From Edaphobacter paludis (lineage in GTDB: Bacteria; Acidobacteriota; Terriglobia; Terriglobales; Acidobacteriaceae): 64,000 nt of DNA. This document shows, in pieces, positions 38,483 through 51,618 of this stretch. The DNA lies in NCBI RefSeq assembly GCF_039993895.1, contig NZ_CP121194.1:1178001-1242000 (forward strand), written 5' to 3'. Every line of letters begins with the position of its first letter. The stretch's first letter is position 1. Position numbers and translations under genes: made by a program. Under the pieces are notes generated by a model. The model did not search any database, had not been told where the DNA came from, and saw only the letters and a list, made by a program, of their open reading frames with translations.

Positions 38483-39715
38483 CTAGTCTGCCGCTATGGC
38501 TACGGGCTCGTCGGTGAGGGCGCGGCCTCCGGCGCCGACCCATGTCCTGGTCCAGCGGCGGGAGACGATGAGCAGCATTATGAGGATTAGCGAGGCTATT
38601 GCGGCGTAGGCGATGAAGCCTGCGGCGTAAGAACCGGTGTGCTGCTTGGACTGGCCGAGGAGGTTGGGCAGGACGCCGCCGCCGAGCGCGCCGATCTCGC
38701 CGATCATGCCGCCAGCGACCGCGGTGGTGATGGGCCAGCGGAGAGGGACGAGTTGGAAGGTGGCTCCGTTGCCTGCGCCGAGGGCGGCGAAGCAGAGCAT
38801 GAAGAGCAGCGTGGTGACGAGAAGCGACGGCGATGCGATGAGGCCGAAGAGTCCGGCGATGACGATGAGGAAGACGACGGAGAGAGTGGTGATGCCGCCG
38901 ATGCGGTCGGCGAACCAGCCGCCGAGGACGCGGGTGGCGCTGCCGGTGAGGGTGGCGAGGACGGTGAGGCTTCCGGCCTGAATTTTGGTTACGTGGAATT
39001 GTTTGACAAAGAACGAAGGCAGAAAGGTGGCGAGGCCGATGAAGCCGCCGAAGGTGATGATGTAGACGAGGTTGAAGGCCCAGCCATCTTTTTCCCAGAG
39101 GCATTTGAGGTGATCGCGGAGACTCTGGTGCTCGATGTCTGGCGGTTCTTTGGCGAAGACGATCATGACGATGAGGGGGAGCAGCATCATTGCCGCCGCG
39201 AAGCCGTAGACGTGCTGCCAGCCGTAGTGGGTGGCGAGGCGTGGCGCGAAGAGCGCGGCAACGGCGGTGCCGCTGTTGCCTGCTCCGGCGATGCCCATGG
39301 CGAGGCCTTTGTATTGTTTGGGGAACCAGCCTGAGCCGAGGGAAAGTGCAACGCCGAAGCTGGCTCCGGCGATGCCGAGCAGGACGCCCATGGCGAGGAC
39401 GTCGTGAAAGGTTTTGACGAAGAAGAAGCCGTAGAGAAGCGCGATGACGATGGCCGACATCTCGATGATGGCGGCCATTTTTCTGCCGATGTACTGCGAG
39501 ACGACGCCGAGCGGGAAGCGCATGAAGGCTCCGGCGAGCGTGGGGACGGAGACCATGAGGCCGACCTGACCCTGAGAGAGGTGGAACTGCTCGGAGATGA
39601 ATGGGCCCATGGCTCCGTTGAGAACCCAGACGGCGAAGCTGAAGTCGAAGTAGAGGAAGGCCGCGAGCAGGGTTGGTGGATGTCCGGACTTCATGAATGC
39701 TTTGAGATTTGCCAT
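38483..39715 (-). CDS. narK: NarK-type nitrate/nitrite transporter (MFS, NNP family)
   Basis: 410 residues with 12 predicted helices. Both NNP nitrate-signature motifs are visible: IAGAGNSGTAVAALFAPRL (helix 5) and LGAGNGATFQLVPLRWP (helix 11). RFPLGVVSQYIGRK is the MFS loop motif. Start ATG 39715 is chosen over 39745 because GGGGAG lies 6-7 nt upstream. It moves nitrate in and/or nitrite out across the inner membrane. It is the last gene of the nirA-cysJ-like-dmsBC-nasA-narK unit. Confidence 0.92.
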   Translation of the reverse strand: MANLKAFMKSGHPPTLLAAFLYFDFSFAVWVLNGAMGPFISEQFHLSQGQVGLMVSVPTLAGAFMRFPLGVVSQYIGRKMAAIIEMSAIVIALLYGFFFVKTFHDVLAMGVLLGIAGASFGVALSLGSGWFPKQYKGLAMGIAGAGNSGTAVAALFAPRLATHYGWQHVYGFAAAMMLLPLIVMIVFAKEPPDIEHQSLRDHLKCLWEKDGWAFNLVYIITFGGFIGLATFLPSFFVKQFHVTKIQAGSLTVLATLTGSATRVLGGWFADRIGGITTLSVVFLIVIAGLFGLIASPSLLVTTLLFMLCFAALGAGNGATFQLVPLRWPITTAVAGGMIGEIGALGGGVLPNLLGQSKQHTGSYAAGFIAYAAIASLILIMLLIVSRRWTRTWVGAGGRALTDEPVAIAAD

Positions 39716-39823
39716 GGATAGCTCCCCTGAAGAGATGAGTTTCAATTTGGTTCATCTGGTGCGAGGTGAACGTCGGGGTTCGACCGTGGTATTCGTCTGG
39801 CATTCGGCGGCTTGGCCGAGTTT

Positions 39824-42001
39824 TTACTTCAATGTCTTGAAATACTTTTCTACGCGGACGGCGCACTGTTTGAAGTTGGGCTCGCGCGAAATGGGATCGA
39901 AGGCTCCCAGGGTGACGAGGTTGGAGTTGGTCTCGGCGAAGTGGAAGGGCATGAAGACCTGACCGGGTGCGACGATGCCGGTGATGCGCAGCTCGATATT
40001 GCGGACGGTGCTGCGACGGGAGAGAACGTTGACGCGGTCGTGGGGGCGGAGTTCGAGTTTGGCGGCGTCGATGGGGTTCATCTCGAGCCAGGCGTTTGGA
40101 ACCATGCTGTCGAGCATTTCAACCTCGGCGGTTTTGGTGCGAGTGTGCCAGTGTTCGACGGTGCGGCCGGTGTTGAAGATGAAGTTGTATTCTTCGTTGG
40201 GCTGCTCGACGAAGGGCAGGCAGGGGACGCTGTAGAGGACGGCTTTGCCGGTGGCGGTGGGGAAGATGCCGTCGGCGTAGAGGCGGTCGCCGCCCCATTG
40301 TGCGCCGCCTTCGTCTTCAAGCTGCTGCCATGTGAAGTTGCTGTAGTCGCACATGCGTCCTGCGGAGACGCGCTGCCATTCTTTGAAGGCGTCGTGGGTG
40401 GTTTGCCAGTTGGGGAATAGCTCGTCGCGGACGCCGAGGCGTTGGGCGATATCGAGGAAGATGTCGAAGTCGGAGCGGGCGAGACCGGGAGGCGTGACGA
40501 CGGGATTTACTTTGCTGACGCGGCGCTCGGAGTTGGTGTAGGTGCCTTCTTTTTCTCCCCAGATGGCGGCGGGGAGGACGAGGTCTGCGAATTCGCTGGT
40601 GGGCGTGGGGTGGAAGCCATCCTGCACGATGAGGAAGTCGACGCTTTCGAGGGCTTGCTTGAGCAGAGCGTAGTTGGGGAAAGAGACGGCGGGGTTGGTG
40701 GCGATGAACCAGAGAGCTTTGACTTTGCCGGCGACGGCGGCCTCGATGATGTCGGGGTAGGCGAGGCCGCGTGATGTGGGGATGCGGTCGGCGTCGATGT
40801 TCCAGATGCGGGCGAGGTCTTCGCGGTCTTGCGCCTTCTCGAATTTGCGGTAGCCGGGGAGAGCGGTGGTGAAGCTGGTTTCGCGGCTGCCCATGGCGTT
40901 GCACTGGCCGGTGATGGAGAACGGTGCGGCTCCGGCGCGACCTATGTTGCCAGTGATGAGCGCGAGATTGTTGATAGCGGTGACGGTGGCTGCGCCCTGC
41001 GTGGAGTGATTGACGCCCATGGTCCAGCCGATGAACGCGGCTTTCGCTTTGCCGTAGAGGTGGGCGGTGTTGACGATGGTTTCTTCACTGAGGCCGGTGA
41101 CTTCGGCTACGTGTTGTGGTGTGAAGTCGGCGACGAAGCTTGCGAACTCTTCGAAGCCGGTAGTGTGCTGGTGGATGTAGTCGCGGTCGATGAGGCCGTC
41201 GCGGATGAGGATGTGCGCGATGCCGTTGAGCAGGGCGATGTCGCCGCGCGGCTTGATGGGGAGATGGATGTCGGCCATCATGGCAGTCTTGGTGACGCGT
41301 GGGTCGACCACGATGACGGTGGAGTTTTGGTTGCACTGGCGATTGCGTTCAATGCGCTGGCAGAGGATGGGGTGGTTGTCGGCGATGTTGGCGCCAATGA
41401 GGAGGATGAGGTCGGCGGTCTCCATGTCGGCGTAGGAGCCGGGTGGGCCGTCGCTGCCGAAGGTGAGCTTGTAGCCGGAGACGGCGGAGGCCATGCAGAG
41501 GGTGGTGTTGCCGTCGTAGTTGCGGCTGCCGAAGCCGAGCTGGATGAGCTTGCCCAGAGTGTAGAACTCTTCGGTGACGAGTTGGCCAGTGCTGATGACG
41601 CCGAGGGAATCGCTGCCGTATTTTTGCTGGACGGCGGAGATTTTTTCGAGCATGACGGTGAGGGCTTCGTCCCAGGAGACGGGGACGAGCTTGCCATCTT
41701 TGCGTAGGAGCGGCTGCTTGGCGCGGCCGGGGGCGTTGAGGATGTGATGCTCGCTGAGACCTTTGGGGCAGAGCTTGCCAAGGTTGACGGGGTGGTCGGG
41801 ATTGCCGCGGACGGTGACGGCTTTGTTGTCTTTGACGCCGACGAGCATGCCGCAGCCGACGGAGCAGTAGCCGCAGGTGGTTTTGACCCAGGTGTCGGCT
41901 ACGCGGGCGGTGGCGATGTGACCGAAACGCGGGTCGCGCTGGAAGGTGTATTCGGATTGGCGGGTGTCGATGCCGAGAGCGCGGCGGATTCGTTTCAACA
42001 T
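39824..42001 (-). CDS. nasA: Assimilatory nitrate reductase catalytic subunit, NasA-like
   Basis: 725-residue molybdopterin oxidoreductase. An N-terminal [4Fe-4S] motif TTCGYCSVGCGMLVGV...GKLCPKGL is followed by bis-MGD binding regions (LLIGANIADNHPILCQRIERN, GWTMGVNHSTQGAATVTAINNLALITGNIGRAGAAPFSITGQCNAMGSRE, VLPAAIWGEKEGTYTNSERRVS) and the C-terminal cap (TGRTVEHWHTRTKT, MNPIDAAKLELRPHDRV). No Tat signal, so it is cytoplasmic. No C-terminal extra Fe-S domain. Its ATG overlaps the DmsBC stop as TAATG, with GGAGG in the upstream gene, so they are co-translated. Confidence 0.92.
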   Translation of the reverse strand: MLKRIRRALGIDTRQSEYTFQRDPRFGHIATARVADTWVKTTCGYCSVGCGMLVGVKDNKAVTVRGNPDHPVNLGKLCPKGLSEHHILNAPGRAKQPLLRKDGKLVPVSWDEALTVMLEKISAVQQKYGSDSLGVISTGQLVTEEFYTLGKLIQLGFGSRNYDGNTTLCMASAVSGYKLTFGSDGPPGSYADMETADLILLIGANIADNHPILCQRIERNRQCNQNSTVIVVDPRVTKTAMMADIHLPIKPRGDIALLNGIAHILIRDGLIDRDYIHQHTTGFEEFASFVADFTPQHVAEVTGLSEETIVNTAHLYGKAKAAFIGWTMGVNHSTQGAATVTAINNLALITGNIGRAGAAPFSITGQCNAMGSRETSFTTALPGYRKFEKAQDREDLARIWNIDADRIPTSRGLAYPDIIEAAVAGKVKALWFIATNPAVSFPNYALLKQALESVDFLIVQDGFHPTPTSEFADLVLPAAIWGEKEGTYTNSERRVSKVNPVVTPPGLARSDFDIFLDIAQRLGVRDELFPNWQTTHDAFKEWQRVSAGRMCDYSNFTWQQLEDEGGAQWGGDRLYADGIFPTATGKAVLYSVPCLPFVEQPNEEYNFIFNTGRTVEHWHTRTKTAEVEMLDSMVPNAWLEMNPIDAAKLELRPHDRVNVLSRRSTVRNIELRITGIVAPGQVFMPFHFAETNSNLVTLGAFDPISREPNFKQCAVRVEKYFKTLK

Positions 42002-43638
42002 TAGTATGTGCCTCCGCGAGTGAAGGTGAGCGCCATGTTGAGCGGAACGACGGAGACGAAGAAGAGATAGCGCGCGATGATAACTGCGGCGAAGGTGGCG
42101 AGCGTGGCGAAGGCGAAGGCTCCGCAGAAGGAGAGCAGGCCTGCGGCGGCGGCGAGAGCGAAGGTGACAATGACGGCGGGACGGAAGTTTTGCGTGCCGA
42201 GAAGCTCGGCGGTGGCGCGTTCTTCAAAGAGGCTGGAGCGATTGAGACGGATGAGACGGATGGCGTGGTTGGCGATCCATGGAATCGCTGCGAGGCCCGT
42301 GAGCCATGCGGGAAAGGCACTGATGGTTTGCAGATGGAGCGGTTGCAGCAGCGTGATGTGGTTGAGCGTTTTGACGATCCAGTTGAGAGTGACTGGAAGC
42401 GTGGAGCCGATGAGGAGGCTGCTGAGGAGGAAGTCGATGGGGGTGTGGACCATGTTCCATGCGGGACGCGCGGGAACGAGATAGATGAAGGCGCTGGCGA
42501 TGGTGCCGGCCACGCCGAGGATAGCGGCTGCGCAGCCGATGGTTGTGAGGAATTGTGCGACGAACGGGAGCGTTTGCATGTGCCGCAACAGTGAGCTGTG
42601 CAGGATGGATGCGGTGGATGGCGTGAGCAGCCAGGTGGCGAAGGTGAAGGTGGCGATGGCACCGAAGAAGAGGCCGAAGAGGAGAACCTCGCGGCTGAGC
42701 CAGGAGCGGCGCCACATCTTCAAGGCTCGCCATGCGTAGGCGGGACGGCCGAGATGGAAGACGGAGATGTTGAGCGCGATGCTGGTGATGACGAGCAGGA
42801 TGGTGAGCAGCATGGGCGGGGCTGCGTGGAAGAGCAGCGCGAAGATGAGTGAGCCGGTTACGGACTGGATGAGCGTCGTCATGAAGACGAGGGAGAGATG
42901 GGCGTGTTCGGGCTGGATGCGTCCTATGTCTACGCGCTCGAGTTTGGTGGTTGTGTTGGGGGGAAGCGTGATGCGCGTGGTCGAGATGGTGTGCCCCGCC
43001 GCGGGCATGCCGGGAGATTCGGCACTGGCGTAGTCGACGCGCCATGCGGTGGTGTTGACGATTTCGATCTCGATGGCGGCTTCTGGGCAGGCGTTGACGC
43101 AGGCGGGTTCGAGGCCGTCGGTGAGGCGGCCGTGGCACATGTCGCATTTGCCGACGACTCCCCGCTCGGCGTTGAACTGAGGGACGGAGTAAGGGCAGTT
43201 CCAGACGCAATACTGGCAGCCGATGCAGGCGTCGGCGGAGTGGAGGACGATGCCGGTAATGGGATCTTTGGTGTAGGCATCGACTGGGCAGCCTTTGACA
43301 CATTCGGCGTCGAGGCAGTGGTTGCAGCCCATGGAGAGGTAGTGGCGAAGCGTGTCGGGGTAGGTGCCGCCTTCGATCTCGCCGATGCGCCGCCAGCGAA
43401 TGTCGGCGGGGTTGCCGTTCTGCTCGTTGCAGGCGATCTCGCAGGAGCGGCAGCCGATGCATTTGGTCATATCGAAGTGAAAGCGGTATTGTTCTCCGGC
43501 TTCGAGCGCGCGTGTGGGGATGAGCGACGTGACGACGGTTGCCGCTGGTACGGAGGGCTGGCCGAGGTCGGCGAAGGTCATGCGCACGATGGAGTCTTCG
43601 GTGGCGGATTGTGCGAGTTCCTGTAGGGGTAGAGACAC
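42001..43638 (-). CDS. Fused DmsB-like ferredoxin and DmsC-like membrane anchor
   Basis: 545 residues, GTG start with GGAGG 6 nt upstream. Residues about 50-215 carry four cysteine clusters of the DmsB/NrfC type (CIGCRSCEIAC, CNHCLDAECVKGCP, CIGCQYCVWNCP, CDMCHGRLTDG...CVNACP) for four [4Fe-4S] centres. After a linker, about 265-545 forms eight membrane helices of the DmsC quinol-oxidising type (LSLVFMTTLIQSVTGSLIFALLF onward). A single polypeptide thus could pass electrons from the quinone pool to a molybdoenzyme. Overlap with nasA (TAATG) makes NasA the likely partner. Confidence 0.9.
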   Translation of the reverse strand: MSLPLQELAQSATEDSIVRMTFADLGQPSVPAATVVTSLIPTRALEAGEQYRFHFDMTKCIGCRSCEIACNEQNGNPADIRWRRIGEIEGGTYPDTLRHYLSMGCNHCLDAECVKGCPVDAYTKDPITGIVLHSADACIGCQYCVWNCPYSVPQFNAERGVVGKCDMCHGRLTDGLEPACVNACPEAAIEIEIVNTTAWRVDYASAESPGMPAAGHTISTTRITLPPNTTTKLERVDIGRIQPEHAHLSLVFMTTLIQSVTGSLIFALLFHAAPPMLLTILLVITSIALNISVFHLGRPAYAWRALKMWRRSWLSREVLLFGLFFGAIATFTFATWLLTPSTASILHSSLLRHMQTLPFVAQFLTTIGCAAAILGVAGTIASAFIYLVPARPAWNMVHTPIDFLLSSLLIGSTLPVTLNWIVKTLNHITLLQPLHLQTISAFPAWLTGLAAIPWIANHAIRLIRLNRSSLFEERATAELLGTQNFRPAVIVTFALAAAAGLLSFCGAFAFATLATFAAVIIARYLFFVSVVPLNMALTFTRGGTY

Positions 43639-43689
43639 TGGTGCCCTCCTTTCGTGAGGTGCTTATGGATCGATTGCCGGCGTGGGCGT

Positions 43690-45501
43690 TTAGTAAACGT
43701 CGCGGTGGTAGCGGTGATCGTCTTTCAAGGTCTGCACGTATTCGGTTGCTGCTTCGGCGTTGAGGTTGCCTTGTTTGGCGACGATGCTGTGGAGTGTGGC
43801 GTCGACATCTTTAGCCATACGGGCGGCGTCGCCGCAGACGTAGATGCTGGCTCCGTCCTCGAGCCATGACCAGAAGCGCGGGGCTTGCTCGAGCATCTTG
43901 TCCTGCACGTAGACCTTGTGCTCCTGGTCGCGGGAGAAGGCGAGATCGAGATGGGTGAGGTGCTTGTCCTTGAGCATCGATTCGAGCTCGTCGCGGTAGA
44001 GGAAGTCGGTTGCGGCACTGCGCTCACCGAAGAAGAGCCAGTTCTTTCCGGTGGCGGATAGAGCGCGGCGCTGGTGCAGGAAGGCGCGGAAGGGCGCGAT
44101 TCCAGTGCCGGGGCCGATCATGATGATGGGCGCGTCGGACTGCTGGGGCAGGCGGAATTTTTTGTTGGGCTGGATGTAGATGGCCCGGCGTTCGCCTGTG
44201 TTGGTGCGGTCGGCGAGCAGGGTGGAGCAGACGCCGCCGCGCTCGCGGTTATGGGCGCGATAGCGGACGACGGCGATGGTGGTGTGAATCTCGCCGGTGT
44301 GCGCGTAGGGGCTGGAGGAGATGGAGTAGAGGCGCGGCGCGAGTTTGGGCAGCATGGCGACAAGGTCTGCGGGATCGTGGAGGACGCCGGGGTAGTCGTG
44401 GAGGAGATCGATGAGGCCGCGGTCGTAGGTATATTTTTCGAGGTGCGCCTGCTGCTCGGGAATGAGCAGACCGAAGAGCGGCTTGCAGTTGCCGATGGTG
44501 GCGTAGGCTTCAATCATCCTGCGGGTGAGGCGGGTGATCTGCAGGTGATTTGTGAGGGCGTCGACGAGCGTTGTGGTGCCGGATTTGGGGAGCTGCACCG
44601 GGGCCTGGGCGCTGAAGTTCAGCATGGTGATGATGTCTGCGACAAGCTGGTGGTCGTTTTGCGGGACGACACCGCAAGCATCTCCGGCTTCGTACTTGAG
44701 GTTCGAGTCGGCGATAGAGAAGGCCATGTGCATGGTGAGTTTGCTGGAGACTTCGCGGGTGAGTGGGTGCTTGTCAACTACAGGCGCGAGAAAGGGATTT
44801 TCGCGCGTGTAGGAAGAGGCACCGGTGCTGCTTGCTGCAGGCTTCGCTGCAGGCGCTGCGGTTTTGATGGAGGCTGACGGCGCGTTCTTGGCCGGGCGTG
44901 TGGAGACGATGGATTCGAGGCGAGAGTAGAGGCCCTGCTTCCAGCTTGCGAAGGCATCGTCCAGATCGATATCGCAGTCGACGCGATTGTGGAGACGGAC
45001 TGCGCCGAGGGAGTCGAGCTTATTGTCGAGGTCGATGCCGAATTTGCAGAAGTGCTCGTAGTGCGAATCGCCGAGGGCGAGCACAGCGTAGGAGAGATCC
45101 TGATAGCGGGGGAAGTGTTCGATGCAGAGCTTCTCGTAGAAGGGCTTGACTGCATCGGGGGCGTCGCCGTCGCCGTAGGTGCTGGCGATGAGAATGGCGT
45201 AGCGCTCTTCGGCGAGCGCAGCGGGCGTATAGCCTTCGAGCGAGATGAGCGAGGCGATGTGTCCTTTGGATTTGAGGTCCTTCACGACTTTACGAGCGAG
45301 GCCCTCAGCGGTGCCGGACTGTGAGGCGTAGAGCACGGCGATCTTGAGCGCAGGCGGAGCTTCGGTGACTGCGGCGGGCTGCGTCGAGGAGAAGATTCCG
45401 GCGAGGAAGCCGTTGAGCCACGCGCGCTGATCATCGCTGAAGGGCGCGTTATCTGGGATGAAGGGAACGAGTGTAGGGAGGCCGGTAGTTTGCATGGTCA
45501 T
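43690..45501 (-). CDS. CysJ-like diflavin (FMN/FAD) NADPH reductase
   Basis: 603 residues. N-terminal helix motif FSDDQRAWLNGFLAGIFS (about 21-38). Flavodoxin domain with AVLYASQSGTAEGLARKV and ASTYGDGDAPDAVKPFYEKL. FAD-binding region RLYSISSSPYAHTGEIHTTIAVV and GGVCSTLL. NADP domain PIIMIGPGTGIAPFRAFLHQR, NWLFFGERSAATDFLYRDEL and YVCGDAARMAKDVDATL. This is the sulfite-reductase flavoprotein architecture. Its position directly after the NirA-like gene (ATGA overlap, AGGAG site) suggests it delivers NADPH electrons to that siroheme enzyme, here probably for nitrite. Confidence 0.92.
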   Translation of the reverse strand: MTMQTTGLPTLVPFIPDNAPFSDDQRAWLNGFLAGIFSSTQPAAVTEAPPALKIAVLYASQSGTAEGLARKVVKDLKSKGHIASLISLEGYTPAALAEERYAILIASTYGDGDAPDAVKPFYEKLCIEHFPRYQDLSYAVLALGDSHYEHFCKFGIDLDNKLDSLGAVRLHNRVDCDIDLDDAFASWKQGLYSRLESIVSTRPAKNAPSASIKTAAPAAKPAASSTGASSYTRENPFLAPVVDKHPLTREVSSKLTMHMAFSIADSNLKYEAGDACGVVPQNDHQLVADIITMLNFSAQAPVQLPKSGTTTLVDALTNHLQITRLTRRMIEAYATIGNCKPLFGLLIPEQQAHLEKYTYDRGLIDLLHDYPGVLHDPADLVAMLPKLAPRLYSISSSPYAHTGEIHTTIAVVRYRAHNRERGGVCSTLLADRTNTGERRAIYIQPNKKFRLPQQSDAPIIMIGPGTGIAPFRAFLHQRRALSATGKNWLFFGERSAATDFLYRDELESMLKDKHLTHLDLAFSRDQEHKVYVQDKMLEQAPRFWSWLEDGASIYVCGDAARMAKDVDATLHSIVAKQGNLNAEAATEYVQTLKDDHRYHRDVY

Positions 45502-47288
45502 ACGAGCTCCTGAGTTGCGCAGAAGGATTGCAGTTCGGTGATGGAGTGGCGGCGCGTGAAGTCGAGAAAGGACTCTTCCGGGTTACGTTGCGTGGTGTAG
45601 GTGCGGAAGAGCTGCTCCATGACTGGCGGCAGATCGCTGAACTTGATGGCGGGGATCAGCTCGCGAGCGATGCTTTGATCCTGGTCGGAGCCTCCGCCGA
45701 CGACGACCTGGTAGCCTTCTTCGCCGCCGACCTTGACGCCCATGAGGCCGATGTCGCCGATGTAGTGCTGGGCGCAGGAGTGGGGGCAGCCGGTGACGTG
45801 CAGATTGACGGGCTGCATGATGTTGAAGCGGCTGTCGAGCATGTTGGCGAGCGCGACGGCGTGGGCTTTCGTATCGGTTGCGGCGAAGCGGCATCCCTTG
45901 TTGCCTGTGCAGGCTACGGTGCCGCTGAGGACGGTGCCTGCTTCGAAGGCGAGACCTGCGGCGAGAATTGCTGCCTTTGCGGCTTCGAGCTTTGCCGTGG
46001 GGATGTTGGGGATGATGAGGTTCTGCCAGACAGTGAGGCGCAGTTGGCCGGTGCCGCAGGTCTCGGCGATGTTGGCGAGACCGAGCATTTGATCTACTGG
46101 CAGGCGTCCGACGGGAACGGAGACGCCGATGTAGTGCAGGCCGGGCTGCGACTGTGCATGCACGCCGATGTGTCCGGCGCGGTCGATGGGCTTGCGCGGT
46201 TCGCAGGCGGATGCGGGAACGCGGATGAGCGGGAAGGCGAGAAGCTTCTCGGTTTTGGTGATGAACTTTTCGACGCCCCATTTGTCGATGAGGTATTTGA
46301 GGCGGGCCTTCTTGCGGTCGGTGCGGTCACCGCGTTCGGCGAAGACGCGAATCATGGCGGCGGCTACGGCGACGGTCTGGTCGGGGCGAAGGAGAAGGCC
46401 GCAGTCTGTCGCGAACTGCTTGTGGCCGGTGATGCCGCAGAGCAGCACGCGGAAGTAGACGCCGGCGGGGATGCCGTGGCCTTCCTTGACCTCGACGGCG
46501 ATGAAGCCGATGTCGTTGGTGTCGGCGACGACGCTGATGGCGCCGCCGTTGTCGAAGGCGACGTTGAACTTGCGTGGCAGGCCGTACATGTCGCGAGAGT
46601 TGAGGATGTAGCGGTTGAGCGCGTCGGCGAGCGGCGCTACGTCATAAAGCTCTTCCGGGTCAATGCCGGTGATGGGCGATGCGGTGATGTTGCGGATGTT
46701 GTCGGCGCCTGATCCGCGGGAGGTCATGCCGAGGTCTTGAACTTTGCCAAGGACGCGGACGATGTCTTTAGGTTGGAACTCGCGTATCTGGAGGTTGCTG
46801 CGCGTGGTGAGGTCGGCGCGGCCGGAGCCCCAGTCGGCGGCCATCTGCGCGAGGCCGCGAAGCTGGTGCGCGCTGAGGATGCCGCCCGGCACGCGCATAC
46901 GCAGCATGAAAGAGTCCTGCGCTGGAGCGACGTAGAAGAGTCCGTGAAATTTGAAGCGGAAGAGATCGTCGGGCGCGGGGGCCTTGTCTTCGTTAGCGTG
47001 TGCGACGAGTTTGTCCCAGATGTCGAGCGCGTTTTCTTCCTGCTTCCAGCGCTCTTCTTTGCAGAGGTCGGAGAGGGGCGTGCCAAACCACATTGGCTCG
47101 GCTTCTTCGGCAGCCTGATTGACGAGGCCAGAGGCGGGATCATTGGTGATGTGGCCGCTGAAGGTTTGGCCAACGAAAGGCATGACTCCGCGCTGGGCCA
47201 CGCCGGCGAAGAAGCCTTGCAGATATTGCTGCTGCGCGATGGAGAACCCTGGAGCGTCGATGAGGGTGGTGCCGGTTTGCTGTTCCAT
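45498..47288 (-). CDS. nirA: Siroheme nitrite/sulfite reductase, NirA-like
   Basis: 596 residues. Two ferredoxin-like half-domains and two siroheme/[4Fe-4S] domains. The cluster ligands are ACTGNKGC (Cys460, Cys466) and GCPHSC (Cys501, Cys505), the Cx5C...Cx3C pattern of nitrite/sulfite reductases. RGSGADNIRNITASP and PVGRLPVDQMLGLANIAE fit NirA. Extra N terminus (about 15-30): FSIAQQQYLQGFFAGVAQ, strikingly like the N terminus of the adjacent diflavin reductase. GGAG lies 9 nt upstream of the ATG. First gene of the nitrate cluster. Sulfite as substrate cannot be excluded, but NasA and NarK neighbours favour nitrite. Confidence 0.9.
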   Translation of the reverse strand: MEQQTGTTLIDAPGFSIAQQQYLQGFFAGVAQRGVMPFVGQTFSGHITNDPASGLVNQAAEEAEPMWFGTPLSDLCKEERWKQEENALDIWDKLVAHANEDKAPAPDDLFRFKFHGLFYVAPAQDSFMLRMRVPGGILSAHQLRGLAQMAADWGSGRADLTTRSNLQIREFQPKDIVRVLGKVQDLGMTSRGSGADNIRNITASPITGIDPEELYDVAPLADALNRYILNSRDMYGLPRKFNVAFDNGGAISVVADTNDIGFIAVEVKEGHGIPAGVYFRVLLCGITGHKQFATDCGLLLRPDQTVAVAAAMIRVFAERGDRTDRKKARLKYLIDKWGVEKFITKTEKLLAFPLIRVPASACEPRKPIDRAGHIGVHAQSQPGLHYIGVSVPVGRLPVDQMLGLANIAETCGTGQLRLTVWQNLIIPNIPTAKLEAAKAAILAAGLAFEAGTVLSGTVACTGNKGCRFAATDTKAHAVALANMLDSRFNIMQPVNLHVTGCPHSCAQHYIGDIGLMGVKVGGEEGYQVVVGGGSDQDQSIARELIPAIKFSDLPPVMEQLFRTYTTQRNPEESFLDFTRRHSITELQSFCATQELV

Positions 47289-47387
47289 GCTGAATCTCCT
47301 TTACGGTTTCCGGCGGTTGAAGCCGGAAGGTCGCAGGGCGCGATCTGGATTGGGTGCAGCCAGATGCGGGGCCAGATAAACATCGCG

Positions 47388-47401
47388 TTGAGAGAACTCA
47401 A
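47388..47401. promoter_or_regulatory. Candidate Crp/Fnr-family operator upstream of nirA
   Basis: TTGAGAGAACTCAA is a perfect dyad that fits the TTGA-N6-TCAA core of FNR/DNR/NnrR-type regulators, with G/C instead of T/A at the fifth position. It lies about 100 bp before the nirA start. No such regulator is encoded in the window. Confidence 0.45.
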
Positions 47402-47456
47402 TTGCGATGATTCAAGGCTCGTCAGGGAGCATGAAAACTATGGAGGAGAGTGGGAG

Positions 47457-47516
47457 CCGGGACACAGCAGGGTGCCGGGCTGAACTTCTTCGGCTATCCA
47501 GATCGGGCTGGATAGC
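47457..47516 (+). promoter_or_regulatory. Candidate tandem hexaloop hairpins (ANTAR-target-like)
   Basis: Hairpin 1: CCGG-GA-CAC, loop AGCAGG, GTG-CCGG (47457-47478). Hairpin 2: GCTATCCAG, loop ATCGGG, CTGGATAGC (47493-47516), a perfect 9-bp stem. ANTAR-domain regulators bind paired hairpins with six-base loops having A at position 1 and G at position 4. On the forward strand loop 2 fits exactly, while loop 1 has A1 but A4. On the reverse strand (nirA direction) the loops are CCTGCT and CCCGAT: G4 but not A1. The strand that is actually used is unknown. Confidence 0.4.
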
Positions 47517-47939
47517 ATTCGATGAACTGATAGTACTGCGGGATTTGCTGCGCGGCAAGAGGGAAGCTTTGAATCGCGAGCTGTAAACAAAGATTGAATG
47601 AGGCGTAGAAGTTTTTGTTATACGGCGGCTGTTTTGTTGTTCCGCGTGCACGGCGATGTTACAAAACTGGTAACAGCTTCCATCGCCAGGACACCTTGAT
47701 GTGTCAACTCATCCTGAATCAGTTCTGATTCTTCTGCTCTACGTCTGAGCAAACCAATACCAAGCCTCGTATCAGACCACGACCATTGGGCCAATGCGCC
47801 AGTGTTTTACCGATGCATCACTGTTTTTCTAAATCGGCAAGCAATGGTTGAGGACTTGATATCTGCCACGCATTTGGTGGAAGAGGACAACGATTCACTT
47901 TGAACTAACTAACAGACCATGGCATTTACAGGAGGAGCT

Positions 47940-48779
47940 ATGAAGCGCTTAATTTTGGCGGTTCTTTTCGCGACGCAGGCGGTTTCCGGGTCGTTGATGG
48001 TTGCGCAGGATAACTTTTTTACGAAATGGGAGGACCGGGTGCAGAAGACCTCTGCCCAGCAACCGGGATGGGTGGTGCCTGTTGTGACTCCGTCATCCGG
48101 TATTGTGCAGCTGGCGCGTGTCGATGTGCTGCATCAATGGACTTCGACGCGTACTTCGACGTGGAACTATGGGAATAGCAAGGGGTTCAACTTTATTCCG
48201 TACTACAAGACGGAGATAGATGTGAATCTTCCTCCGTATGTTGAGCACAATACTCCGAAGGCGGTGGATGGCGCAGGAGACTTCTCGATGGTGGTGAAGT
48301 ATCGTCCGTTTGCTGGGGGCGCGGAGAGTGGGAATTACTCGACAGCATTTCAGATTGCGGCTACGGGCGCGACGGGAAGTTACAAGAATGGAACTGCGAG
48401 AACTACGATCAATCCGACGTTGATTCTGGGTAAGGGATTTGGACGTTTCGATGTTCAGTCGAGTCTGGGAGGCACTTTGCCGGTGGGCTCGATCCATACG
48501 ATTGGAAGAACGATCGTATGGAACACAGTCGCGCAGTACCAGGCGGGAAAGATCTTCTGGCCTGAGGTCGAGGTCAATTCGAGCTATTTTCATCTGGGAC
48601 CGAATAATGGGAAGAACCAGACCTTTGTAACTCCTGGACTGATGGCGGGCAGGATCAAGCTGCGAAATGAGCCGGGGGACAGGCTGGGACTGGTGTTTGG
48701 CGGAGGAATGCAGATAGCTACCTCGACTTATCATGCTTATAACCATGGCCTTGTGCTGACGGGGCGGCTTACTTTCTAA
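47940..48779 (+). CDS. Putative outer-membrane beta-barrel protein next to nitrate cluster
   Basis: 279 residues from ATG 47940 with a strong AGGAGGAG site 3 nt upstream. An in-frame ATG at 47919 lacks one. Signal peptide MKRLILAVLFATQAVSGSLMVAQ. The mature part has alternating strand pattern with many Tyr/Phe/Asn/Gly (FSMVVKYRPFAGGAESGNYSTAFQIAAT, RFDVQSSLGGTLPVG, GLVFGGGMQIATSTYHAYNHGLVLTGRLTF) and ends in Phe, as barrels do. No family recognised. Position between nirA and the HemD-GAF-ANTAR gene suggests, but does not prove, a role in anion uptake. Confidence 0.68.
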   Translation: MKRLILAVLFATQAVSGSLMVAQDNFFTKWEDRVQKTSAQQPGWVVPVVTPSSGIVQLARVDVLHQWTSTRTSTWNYGNSKGFNFIPYYKTEIDVNLPPYVEHNTPKAVDGAGDFSMVVKYRPFAGGAESGNYSTAFQIAATGATGSYKNGTARTTINPTLILGKGFGRFDVQSSLGGTLPVGSIHTIGRTIVWNTVAQYQAGKIFWPEVEVNSSYFHLGPNNGKNQTFVTPGLMAGRIKLRNEPGDRLGLVFGGGMQIATSTYHAYNHGLVLTGRLTF

Positions 48780-48797
48780 GTAAGAAGAAGCGATTTT

Positions 48798-48830
48798 ATC
48801 GACGGCTCTGTGATTGTCGATGCAGAGCCG
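48798..48830 (+). promoter_or_regulatory. Two mutually exclusive stems upstream of the HemD-GAF-ANTAR gene
   Basis: CGGCTCTG (48803-48810) pairs with CAGAGCCG (48823-48830). Alternatively ATCGAC (48798-48803) pairs with GTCGAT (48816-48821). The two share C48803 and are interleaved, so only one can form. No T-tract follows, so a simple terminator is less likely than an RNA switch or transcript-end stabiliser. Confidence 0.4.
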
Positions 48831-48892
48831 CTAGAATTGGGATTAACAGCCAGCCGGTTTTAATTGCATGGCGGCGTGGCTGAGGGAGATGA

Positions 48893-50569
48893 ATGACTCA
48901 CGCGAGCTTTGATGGATTGCGGGTTCTGTCGCTTGAATCGCGGCGCGCAAAAGAGGTCGCGAAGTTGATCCGCACTTACGGCGGAGAGCCCTTTGTTGTG
49001 CCCGCGATGCGCGAAGCACCGCTTGAATCGAACAAGCAGGCGCTTGAGTTCGCCGATGGGCTGCTGCGTGGGAAGTTCGATCTCGTGATCTTTCTGACCG
49101 GCGTGGGTATTCGGGCTTTGCTGGATATTGCGCAGACGAAATATAAGCGCGAAGAGTTGATTGAGGCCCTGCGCGGCGTCAAGATTGGAGCGCGCGGACC
49201 GAAACCGGCCGCCGCTTTGAGGGAACTACAGATTCCAGTTACGGCGACGGCGCCTGAACCGAATACGTGGCGCGAGATGATGCATGCGCTGGAGTCGGAG
49301 TTTGGCGACAAGTTAGGTGGGATGCGGGTGGCGGTGCAGGAGTATGGTGCGTCGAACCCCGAGTTTCTTTCCGAACTGACGGTGAAGTGCGGTGAGGTGA
49401 CGAAGGTCCCGGTTTATCAGTGGACGCTGCCTGAAGACCTGGGGCCGCTGCGGGAATGCGTGCTGGGCGTTGCGAATGGAAGTGTCGACGTGGTGCTGTT
49501 TATGACAGCGGTGCAGGTGATTCATCTCTTCCAGGTTGCCGAAGAGATGGGGCTTCGCGAAGATCTGCGCGCCGGGTTGATGTCGATGGTGGTGGTTTCG
49601 ATTGGGCCGACGACTTCGGAAGAACTGGCTCACTATGGAATCACGCCTGACTTTGAACCATCGCATCCGAAGATGGGCTTTCTGGTGAATGAGGCCGCGC
49701 AATACTCCGGCAAGATTCTGGAGCGGAAGCGGAAGCGAGGCGCAGATGCTGCTACTGCGATTGCGCCAACGGTGGACGATGGCGACAAGCCGATGCAAAA
49801 GCCGAAATCCGTGGTGCGCCGGGTTGCTGCTTCGACGCCGACGATGGCGGGGTTTCGCGACGGGCTTACGTCGATCGATTTTCTACATGAGATCAGCAGC
49901 CGGCTGGCATCGGCGGACTCGTTTCATGTGGTGCTGGGCAGCATCGTCGATTTCGTGACGACTGTAATTCCGTGCGACTCGTGCTTCATCTACGTGCTGG
50001 AGAACGAGAAGCTGGTGCTGCGGGCATCGAAGAACCCCCATGTCGATCTTGTGGACCATTTGGGCATGTCGCTGGGGCAGGGAATTACGGGCTGGGTGGC
50101 AGAGCATCGCGAGCCGGTAGCAATTGCATCTGGCGCGTCGAACGATCCGCGTTTTGTCATGTTTCGCAACCTGCCGGAAGACCATTTTGAGGCAATCCTG
50201 TGCACCCCGATTCTTTGCGCGAGCAAGGTGGTTGGGGTTATCAACCTGCAGCACCAGATGAGCTATCAGCACACGGCGAACGAGATCAGGCTGCTCTCGA
50301 TGCTTGGCTTTCTTGTGGGCGCTGAGATTGAGCGCACCCGGCTGGAGACGGAAAATCTGCAACTGGCGGGGCGGCTGGAGACGCGCAAAGCTGTGGACAG
50401 AGCAAAGGGGATTTTGCAGCGCGACCTGGGGATGAGCGAAGACGAGGCCTATAGAACGATGCAACGGGAGAGCCGCCAGCGGCGGATCTCGATGCGCGAG
50501 ATTGCGGATGCCATCGTGCTGGGGGACGACCTGAAGAAGACGCAGGCGGCTGATAGCTCTCGTGCCTAA
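48893..50569 (+). CDS. HemD-GAF-ANTAR fusion: putative RNA-binding nitrate assimilation regulator
   Basis: 558 residues; GGGAG about 5 nt before the ATG. Residues 1-275: uroporphyrinogen-III synthase (HemD) fold (GLRVLSLESRRAKEVAKLI, FDLVIFLTGVGIRALLDI, IGARGPKPAAALRELQIPV, MRVAVQEYGASNPEFLSEL, DVVLFMTAVQVIHLF, VVSIGPTTSEELAHYGITPDFEPSHPKMGFLV). A basic linker (KRKRG) and a spacer follow. GAF domain about 345-485 (CFIYVLENEKLVLRASK, GITGWVAEHREPVAIASGASNDPRF, GVINLQHQ). ANTAR domain about 495-545 (RKAVDRAKGILQRDLGMSEDEAYRTM...RRISMREIADAIV). HemD-like domains occur in the nitrate regulator NnaR; ANTAR domains in NasR/NasT. A nearby siroheme nitrite reductase supports a regulatory role; enzymatic HemD activity is not excluded. 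Confidence 0.88.
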   Translation: MTHASFDGLRVLSLESRRAKEVAKLIRTYGGEPFVVPAMREAPLESNKQALEFADGLLRGKFDLVIFLTGVGIRALLDIAQTKYKREELIEALRGVKIGARGPKPAAALRELQIPVTATAPEPNTWREMMHALESEFGDKLGGMRVAVQEYGASNPEFLSELTVKCGEVTKVPVYQWTLPEDLGPLRECVLGVANGSVDVVLFMTAVQVIHLFQVAEEMGLREDLRAGLMSMVVVSIGPTTSEELAHYGITPDFEPSHPKMGFLVNEAAQYSGKILERKRKRGADAATAIAPTVDDGDKPMQKPKSVVRRVAASTPTMAGFRDGLTSIDFLHEISSRLASADSFHVVLGSIVDFVTTVIPCDSCFIYVLENEKLVLRASKNPHVDLVDHLGMSLGQGITGWVAEHREPVAIASGASNDPRFVMFRNLPEDHFEAILCTPILCASKVVGVINLQHQMSYQHTANEIRLLSMLGFLVGAEIERTRLETENLQLAGRLETRKAVDRAKGILQRDLGMSEDEAYRTMQRESRQRRISMREIADAIVLGDDLKKTQAADSSRA

Positions 50570-50709
50570 AGCTTGTTAAGACTGTATCGGTCTATAGCGA
50601 TCAAGTAAGACACCGACGAAGGCGAAATACGAGGGTATTTTCCACAGAGGCGGCAGTGCGATGCCTTCGGTCGAGATGACGTGAGTTTTTAGCGGTTTGG
50701 GGAACGGCT

Positions 50710-51504
50710 TCAGACGATGAGTACCTGGATATGCTGACGGCGGAATTGCTCGGCCAGTTCGGGATCGATGCTGTCGTCGGTGATGATGGTGTGGATCTGA
50801 GAGGGCTCGCAGACCTTGTTGGTGCTGATCATACCGAGTTTGCTGGCATCGGCTACTGCGATAACCTGACGGGCGTGTTTGGCCATCTCGGCGAGAATCA
50901 GTGCTTCGTCTGACTCGATGACAGTCAATCCATATTCCGGGTGGATGCCGGTGGCACCCATGAAGACCTTATCAAAGTAGAGCTTCTGGATGGAGTGGAA
51001 TGCTGTGGCTCCAACCATGGAGAAGGAGCCTGGCCAGCGGATGGAGCCGCCGGTCAGGGTGACCTTTGCGTTGGGCTGGCTGGAAAGCTCCATGCCGATA
51101 TTGACCGCGCTGGTGACGAGGTGAATGCCTTCGCGGTGGCGCAGGCTGCGGGCTACCTGGGTGGTAGTGGTGCCGGGAGAGAGAGCGATGGTCTCGCCAT
51201 CCGCGACCATCGCGGCGGCGGCGATTGCGATGCGGCGCTTTTCATCGGCGAAGCGTTCTTCGCGGAGAGGGAAGGCTGCGTCGAAGCGGAAGGGCTCGTA
51301 CGTCAGTTTGCCGGCGAGTTCGACGCCCCCATGCGTGCGATGGACCAGGCCCCGGTGCTCTAGTTTGATGAGGTCCCGGCGGACGCTTGCCGAGGAAGCG
51401 TCAACCGTGGCGGCGAGGTCCTCGACGCTGCTGGTGCCCTTCTGCAGGAGCAAGTGAAGGATCTGATTAGCTCGATCATGCGTCTTTGCAGCCACTTGGA
51501 CCAA
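50710..51504 (-). CDS. DeoR/GlpR-family transcriptional regulator
   Basis: 264 residues. N-terminal winged helix-turn-helix (RANQILHLLLQKGTSSVEDLAATVDASSASVRRDLIKLEHRGLVHRTHGGVEL), the DeoR signature. C-terminal sugar-phosphate sensing domain (DGETIALSPGTTTTQVARSL, LVTSAVNIGMELSSQ, VTLTGGSIRWPG, DKVFMGATGIHPEYGLTVIESDEALILAEMAKHARQVIAVADASKLG). It normally represses a sugar-use operon and releases DNA on binding a sugar phosphate. It is divergent from the TonB receptor gene and close to the glycosidase operon, so it probably controls them. Confidence 0.9.
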   Translation of the reverse strand: MVQVAAKTHDRANQILHLLLQKGTSSVEDLAATVDASSASVRRDLIKLEHRGLVHRTHGGVELAGKLTYEPFRFDAAFPLREERFADEKRRIAIAAAAMVADGETIALSPGTTTTQVARSLRHREGIHLVTSAVNIGMELSSQPNAKVTLTGGSIRWPGSFSMVGATAFHSIQKLYFDKVFMGATGIHPEYGLTVIESDEALILAEMAKHARQVIAVADASKLGMISTNKVCEPSQIHTIITDDSIDPELAEQFRRQHIQVLIV

Positions 51505-51618
51505 TCCTTTCTAGTGCCCACCTAATGATAACGGGAATGTCGAGATTAGCTGGTGCAGTTATCGAACCAAAAAGCTGACCATTTGAATAGTTTATTTGCA
51601 TAATAATGAAAAAATTAG

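Follow-up and report, generated by a model that had tools for sequence, protein, structure and literature searches.

A HEM4-GAF-ANTAR fusion protein encoded beside the nirA cluster of Edaphobacter paludis is a probable RNA-binding regulator of nitrite assimilation

The gene described here lies on the plus strand, at positions 48893..50569, of a 64,000-nucleotide stretch of Edaphobacter paludis DNA (contig NZ_CP121194.1), which is referred to below as the window. It is an open reading frame with an ATG start and no internal stops, and its product of 558 amino acids contains three Pfam domains: a uroporphyrinogen-III synthase-like HEM4 domain (PF02602; residues 21-265, 48953..49687; E-value, 3.9e-37; 128.1 bits, cut-off 27.5), a GAF domain (residues 345-479, 49925..50329; E-value, 1.3e-12; 48.8 bits, cut-off 22.4) and a C-terminal ANTAR domain (PF03861; residues 490-542, 50360..50518; E-value, 2.3e-18; 66.1 bits, cut-off 27.3). 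The original prediction, made from the bare sequence, had placed these three domains in one polypeptide, and the domain search bears it out, the C-terminus scoring well above the ANTAR cut-off. No NIT domain was matched in the protein up to an E-value of 1 in Pfam. The AlphaFold2 model (mean pLDDT 81.9, pTM 0.51) makes the folded parts visible, together with a disordered linker at residues 286-341 and a long helix (residues 462-512) that runs into the helical C-terminus. Structure comparison matched the model to Thermus HemD (1wcx; Z 24.9, 3.0 Å over 251 residues) and to two PtsP GAF domains (Z 20.7 and 20.3); the GAF domain of nlh1 was also among the closest solved structures. No ANTAR structure appears in the VIA-align listing, which is uninformative on this point, as HEM4 and GAF matches occupy it. 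A further 42 homologues, all full-length and without internal stops, were aligned with the window protein, and the fusion is therefore no assembly accident.

In NCBIfam, the HEM4 part is matched best by NF005568 (PRK07239; 133.5 bits, cut-off 273), and an ordinary HemD model scores 2.6 bits lower (130.9). We take PRK07239 to be the NnaR-type model, and the match is consistent with NnaR as a precedent for this part of the protein, as far as profile scores can indicate. In the genome, the fusion alone matches ANTAR, and HEM4 is matched by the fusion and by one other gene. The original prediction allowed that the fusion might be the only hemD of the genome; a second HEM4 gene was found at G000:C1:2378156-2378830, so the fusion is not the sole HemD candidate. 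It encodes 251 amino acids, scores 203 bits (128 for the fused domain) and is 24% identical to the fused domain.

A putative outer-membrane porin gene (47940..48779, plus strand) ends 113 bases upstream of the fusion gene and may share an operon with it. No Pfam or NCBIfam family was assigned to this porin, and an Alginate_exp-type porin stands in its place at some related loci. A terminator-like match of chance frequency in the consensus scan falls in the last part of the porin gene, ahead of the fusion (plus strand, 48748-48765), because of which a single porin-fusion operon is not certain. The nitrate assimilation cluster that had been noted beside the fusion does adjoin it, divergently, on the minus strand (38483-47288). 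It begins with nirA (45498..47288), the predicted target, whose product belongs to the siroheme nitrite reductase family (Pfam NIR_SIR; NCBIfam NF007126, 840 bits, cut-off 523). Directly 3' of nirA lies a gene for a CysJ-like flavoprotein identified by profile matches (43690..45501), and the pairing (43690-47288) suggests a flavoprotein-fed, perhaps NADPH-dependent, NirA. It is followed by a gene in which a 4Fe-4S DmsB-like domain and a DmsC-like membrane anchor are joined in one polypeptide, again by profile matches (42001..43638), by one for a NasA-like molybdopterin oxidoreductase (39824..42001), which scores below the NasA and NasC cut-offs of NCBIfam and below that of its best match, Fdh-alpha, and by an MFS permease gene (38483..39745), probably for nitrate transport, judging from its place. 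Since the DmsB-like/DmsC-like fusion stands beside the NasA-like subunit, the nitrate reductase may take electrons from quinol.

A scan of genome contigs gave 375 relatives, the best 80 of which were taken as named loci. These are 52-88% identical to the query and nearly full length, except for L195 (residues 1-410, contig end). Going by their labels, Acidobacteriota account for 77 of these best 80; two loci (L149 and L151) were binned as Rhodanobacteraceae, a label that is probably wrong for L149, and one (L140) is labelled 'bacterium'. The genera represented among them are Granulicella, Edaphobacter, Terriglobus, Acidipila, Acidicapsa, Silvibacterium and Paracidobacterium. No full-length fusion was listed in 24 genomes of other families, where HEM4 and GAF-ANTAR homologues are separate; in G046 (locus L063), stand-alone HEM4, nirB and GAF-ANTAR genes adjoin one another, and this was the only case with nitrogen genes among those neighbourhoods of stand-alone homologues outside the family that were scanned. 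No plasmid record covers 80% of the fusion. In other acidobacterial families, HEM4 and uroporphyrinogen decarboxylase (URO-D) form a single polypeptide (L064:9637-11634 and L067:8253-10307). Stand-alone GAF-ANTAR paralogues, about 57-59% identical, were seen at L074, L075, L076, L077 and L079; a glycine cleavage P-protein gene lies beside the paralogue in L075, and the same cluster is present in the other four.

In a family sample of 120 genomes, the fusion occurs in 18 (with two damaged copies counted, truncated in G077 and frame-shifted in G160) and a NirA of the window type (at least 63% identity) in 14 (including a broken copy in G100), and all 14 NirA genomes carry the fusion (hypergeometric P 5e-15, kinship ignored). 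Three of the four fusion genomes without NirA have nirB beside the fusion (G118, G127 and G139); in the fourth (G124), neither nirA nor nirB was found in the stretch read around the fusion. The association is weaker in the genus sample of 37 genomes: 18 have NirA, 26 the fusion (partial in G019) and 17 of the 18 both (P 0.002), and no nirB was found at an E-value of 1e-100. Among 28 full-length genus copies, nirA was present in the flanks read at 15 and absent at 13, some of which lie at contig ends. At the 80 named loci, the best of the 375, nirA lies within the 6-kb flanks at 49 and nirB at four; several of the remaining 27 stop at contig edges within the flanks. Of the 49 nirA loci, 37 have the divergent layout of the window, and at the other 12 nirA follows the fusion in the same orientation; across these two layouts, the neighbourhood persists down to about 54% protein identity. 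Remnants of the locus were seen at L072 (G014), as fragments of the HEM4 part of the fusion, of the porin and of the permease.

A tree of 43 fusions contains a clade of eight copies without a nitrite reductase nearby (L037, L045, L051, L052, L053, L056, L058 and L107), with support of 89/97, which is under the strict mark; seven of them group at 100/100. Several of the eight share neighbours, which at L058 are annotated as an MGH1-like glycoside hydrolase, SPFH and SPOR proteins, an acyltransferase and a Mur ligase. No hairpin motif of the kind described below was found near the genes of this clade. Around 17 fusion loci not beside nirA, a single hairpin pair was seen (L041), distant from the fusion, and was judged to be due to chance. 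Thus, of the expected link to nirA, the part that stands is that every NirA genome of the family sample carries the fusion and that many homologues adjoin nitrogen genes, but linkage is not general, as seen from the 13 genus copies and the clade of eight.

Three hairpins with six-base loops, each with C at loop position 1 (C1) and G at position 4 (G4), are found in the nirA leader on the minus strand: P1 (GCTATCCAG-CCCGAT-CTGGATAGC, 47493..47516), P2 (GGCAC-CCTGCT-GTGTC, 47461..47476) and P3 (GCTC-CCTGAC-GAGC, 47417..47430). All three appear as hexaloops in the predicted fold of the 237-base leader (47525-47289, minus strand; z-score, -4.4). A possible nirA promoter (TTGCCG-17-TACTAT, 47530..47558, minus strand), which the consensus scan did not pick up, lies 13 bases 5' of P1, and a TACTAT-like box is seen by eye in several related nirA leaders. 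P3 is the most constant element among relatives: it occurs, as GCTC-CNNGAN-GAGC or a near variant, in 26 of 27 nirA leaders of fusion-linked loci, 63-184 bases upstream of the nirA start codon (extrapolated from alignments for most leaders), and the single leader without it belongs to a broken nirA. A second C:G-closed G4 hexaloop hairpin starts 25-79 bases 5' of P3 in 18 of the 26 leaders, while none passing the rule was found in the other eight. In the 12 leaders used for a covariance model (R1), which were picked for a clear P2 (L043 was omitted for its long linker), three of the five P2 pairs are changed on both sides, and the GCTC/GAGC stem of P3 is invariant.

At the 49 named nirA loci, strict P3 is present in 34, compared with 19 occurrences elsewhere in these loci, over 1.85 million strand-bases. 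Seven of the 15 loci without it (L173, L175, L176, L177, L178, L182 and L193) show another pair, gagac-TNNGNN-gtctc or near it plus gcac-CATGCC-gtgc, of which the first alone passes in L177; five keep the GCTC/GAGC stem with a different base at loop position 5; two (L126 and L141) have weakened P3 stems, and in L184 nirA is broken. In KBS 83 (L101 and L184), nirA is split into pieces in different frames (three frames in L101), and P3 is also absent. Two further nirA leaders lack P3: that of L117 (G016), where nirA lies about 12 kb from its fusion, and that of L115 (G026), where the fusion was not found in a genome 73% complete and the first 100 residues of NirA are unaligned. In L116 (G005), P3 is present and the fusion lies on another contig. 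A longer P3 pattern has one exact match in the genome of E. paludis and one with a stem-breaking mismatch, and the reversed control pattern has one. When R1 was run on 61 whole genomes under strict filters, under which it missed many real leaders, 17 matches with E-values up to 1 were obtained. Eight of these are training leaders, two are the G046 nirB leader (E-value, 0.0016), the sole match below 0.2 outside nirA leaders, and the untrained G010 nirA leader (E-value, 0.03), and the other seven (E-values, 0.25 to 0.92) were taken as chance. No Rfam match was found over 46500-51600 up to an E-value of 5.

Canonical tandem hexaloops with A at position 1 (A1) and G4 were considered as well; three pairs occur in the window, none of them close to nirA, and loops without A1 were searched for only after the leaders had been compared. 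When read on the plus strand, the P1 segment (47493-47516) has a hexaloop with A1 and G4 (ATCGGG), which is the canonical ANTAR loop; it runs antisense to the nirA leader, some 175 bases ahead of the porin-side hairpins.

A tandem rule, designed after the motif had been seen, required two hairpins of at least 4 bp each, 25-60 bases apart, with loop length, closing pair and loop base varied. It was applied to 50 leaders, i.e., the window and the 49 named nirA loci, many from the same species as the set of 27, so that the two sets are not independent. Six-base loops with C:G closure and G4 passed in 25 leaders, including that of the window, a count inflated by kinship of the leaders, compared with a mean of 0.27 and a maximum of 2 in 200 runs of Markov controls and 5 on the reverse strand; the other half of the leaders did not pass. 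Loops of five or seven bases gave at most 2 of 50 and other closing pairs at most 1. Among 24 choices of loop base and position, G4 ranked highest and C1 second, with 19. Position 1 is C in 43 of 55 loops, T in 10 and A in 2, and no leader of the 50 has A1 in both loops.

On the porin side, the plus-strand leader contains a C1-G4 hexaloop hairpin (GACAC-CTTGAT-GTGTC, 47690..47705) and a second hairpin with a seven-base G4 loop (GCTC-TACGTCT-GAGC, 47736..47750). The transcripts from 47289-47939 had been named as candidate RNA targets, and both divergent leaders in this interval indeed bear G4 hexaloop hairpins. A G4 hexaloop hairpin of at least 5 bp is present in 20 of 23 porin-side regions (the window and 22 of the 80 named loci), against a Markov mean of 4.8 and maximum of 11; requiring C1 in place of G4 likewise gives 20 of 23. 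This suggests autoregulation, provided that porin and fusion form one operon. A sigma-54 promoter for the porin leader, judged by eye, was dropped because of wrong spacing.

The loci of nirB, whose product is distantly related to NirA and shares its NIR_SIR domains, bear on whether the hairpins go with the reductase or with the regulator. P2 and P3 are present in the nirB leader of L063, where HEM4 and GAF-ANTAR are separate flanking genes, and in that of L106, where the fusion adjoins (L166 is the same record, and the contigs of three other nirB-fusion loci stop short of the leader). No P2/P3 leader was found at L112, L113 and L114, in the stretches of which no HEM4 or ANTAR matches were found either; for L114, the region ahead of the operon's first gene was taken as the leader, with the start codon extrapolated. 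Hence, at the five testable nirB loci, the hairpin leader goes with a HEM4/ANTAR neighbour (two of two with, none of three without), small as these numbers are.

In EutV, RNA-contact residues have been described, with Met172 essential (excerpt of PMC8934654). By alignment, allowing for a difference of 2 that we infer between the numbering of the paper and that of the chain, the EutV contacts map to R498, K499, R503, K505, E516 and Y520 of the fusion, and Met172 to R528. EutV R142, K143, K149, E160 and Y164 are identical in the window protein, whereas K147 and M172 are both replaced by Arg; the latter position is Arg in every one of the 43 fusions, as well as in 12 of 14 stand-alone rows. The NasR and EutV targets have a six-base loop, a closing C:G pair and G4, and A1 of the loop matters in both (excerpts of PMC7496416 and PMC3369931). 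As for the output, no intrinsic terminator was found on the nirA strand by the consensus scan. A terminator after P3 was considered and is unsupported by that scan, and the hairpins behind P3 are near background: 31 of 43 leaders have one of 6 bp or longer, versus 64% in Markov controls, and at least four T follow the best one in 11 of 43. Since no intrinsic terminator was found, the binding site is the step to which the sequences lend support, and the output may be antitermination at a non-canonical or Rho-dependent site or control of translation.

The architecture, its recurrence, its linkage to nitrite reductase genes and the tandem-hairpin leaders are computational observations, and in our judgement they are best explained, with fairly good confidence, by a one-component RNA-binding regulator of nitrite assimilation that would bind the nirA and porin leaders and use HEM4 as its ligand sensor. 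ANTAR domains would pair through the long helix after GAF, and the dimer would recognise tandem hairpins with six-base loops in the nirA operon's 5' leader; these hairpins of fusion-linked nitrite reductase leaders are, from their sequence, the probable ANTAR target. The leader of the divergent porin-fusion genes may be bound too, which would amount to autoregulation, and binding is expected to raise expression of both transcription units. HEM4 would be a HemD fold that serves as a ligand sensor, as in NnaR, and not the HemD enzyme of the cell; by this analogy, and because HEM4 genes travel with siroheme nitrite reductases in Deinococcus, the HemD-fold ligand domain probably gates the regulator. 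Its most likely ligand would be uroporphyrinogen or an intermediate of the siroheme branch; a siroheme precursor had been suggested in the original prediction. GAF may add a second input, perhaps nitrogen status. A more specific version is conceivable, although we would sooner doubt than back it: a new class of tetrapyrrole-gated RNA regulators in which a HemD fold that has lost catalysis would respond to an intermediate of the siroheme branch. An ANTAR dimer with changed specificity (C1-G4 loops, Arg for the Met172 plug of EutV) would thereby be licensed to open the messages for nitrite reductase and nitrate porin, and would do so only if siroheme can be made.

Three other explanations were weighed. 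HEM4 might be a working uroporphyrinogen-III synthase that feeds NirA with siroheme precursor, in which case the ANTAR part would regulate and the fusion would mean co-regulation, not sensing. The residues TGVG, QEYG and IGPTT, which we take to be HemD motifs, are largely invariant in the 43 fusions, the first two have their aligned counterparts in Thermus HemD, HEM4-URO-D fusions occur in other acidobacterial families, and in Deinococcus aquaticus a HEM4 gene lies 3' of nirB-nirD. However, the second HEM4 gene of the genome has the better family score (203 versus 128 bits), and the HEM4 domain of NnaR is reported not to act as a HemD enzyme (excerpt of PMC6277429, citing a Streptomyces study), and we regard a catalytic role as unlikely. 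We give equally little credence to the possibility that the leader hairpins are read by a ribosome, a small RNA or a DNA-binding protein at inverted repeats, with the fusion acting elsewhere. The GCTC/GAGC stem is constant in 12 leaders, which goes beyond what structure alone would require, the loops start with C and not A, and one fusion clade exists without nirA; yet the scan selects precisely the six-base loops, C:G closure and G4 that make up the ANTAR signature, P2 stems covary among leaders, and at five nirB loci the motif is found only where HEM4/ANTAR genes adjoin.

It is still less probable that the fusion regulates stress or nitrogen responses broadly and stands beside nirA through inherited synteny without regulatory meaning. 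Nearly half of the full-length genus copies (13 of 28) lack nirA in the flanks read, and related sequences share leaders by descent. Against this, fusion presence tracks NirA in the 120-genome family sample, and the two genes remain neighbours to about 54% identity in two layouts; G014, which keeps fragments of fusion, porin and permease, has no nirA. An RNA-binding regulator of nitrite assimilation with HEM4 as its ligand sensor is thus the reading that we retain.

According to the original prediction, no protein of this architecture is known to have been described, and nothing relevant was among the matches listed by full-text searches of open-licence PubMed Central papers. Seventeen ANTAR architectures are stated in PMC3369931, and HEM4 and uroporphyrinogen are absent from its text (figure aside). 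The data suggest an undescribed way of controlling nitrite use. If this is true, HemD-fold regulators and ANTAR leader-RNA regulators of nitrite assimilation are united in one protein with a concrete RNA target open to testable point changes, and the reason for a HemD fold in nitrite regulators becomes testable in acidobacteria (Granulicella, Edaphobacter and Terriglobus). If loop C1 goes with Arg at the Met172 position of EutV, the ANTAR RNA code would be wider and more ANTAR regulons could be found.

Among known systems, the nirB-nirD-HEM4 arrangement of Deinococcus plasmids resembles the present one in that its HEM4 homologue is about 38-40% identical to the fused domain; it differs in that HEM4 stands alone, without ANTAR fusion, and no tandem hexaloop pair was found in the one nirB leader read. 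On the Deinococcus aquaticus plasmid (L198:630-6825), genes for a molybdopterin oxidoreductase, NirB and NirD are followed by a HEM4 gene that overlaps nirD, with about 40% identity. Six of the seven Deinococcus records listed with HEM4 matched together with nirD carry the name 'uroporphyrinogen-III synthase', and the seventh is a hypothetical protein. The fusion is unlike NasT/NasS in make-up: NasT is freed from NasS upon nitrate or nitrite sensing, whereas the fusion has sensor and ANTAR in one chain. In both, nitrate assimilation is, or would be, under RNA-binding control (excerpt of PMC3795266). EutV, the ANTAR response regulator of eut genes, shares the five identical residues named above and dual hexaloop leaders, but it has a receiver domain in place of HEM4 and GAF, A1 is missing from the leaders studied here, and the target operons are others. 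NasR of Klebsiella, the NIT-ANTAR antiterminator of nasF, is likewise, from excerpted sources, a one-component ANTAR protein of nitrate assimilation with a tandem hexaloop leader, a C:G closing pair and G4; its sensor is NIT instead of HEM4 and GAF, and the fusion system has mostly C1 instead of A1, no recognised intrinsic terminator and Arg at the Met172 position of EutV. As for NnaR, it has in common with the fusion an N-terminal HEM4 domain, a role in nitrite assimilation and a second HemD elsewhere in the genome (excerpt of PMC6277429), while its output is a DNA-binding domain, in place of which the fusion of the Acidobacteriaceae carries ANTAR plus GAF.
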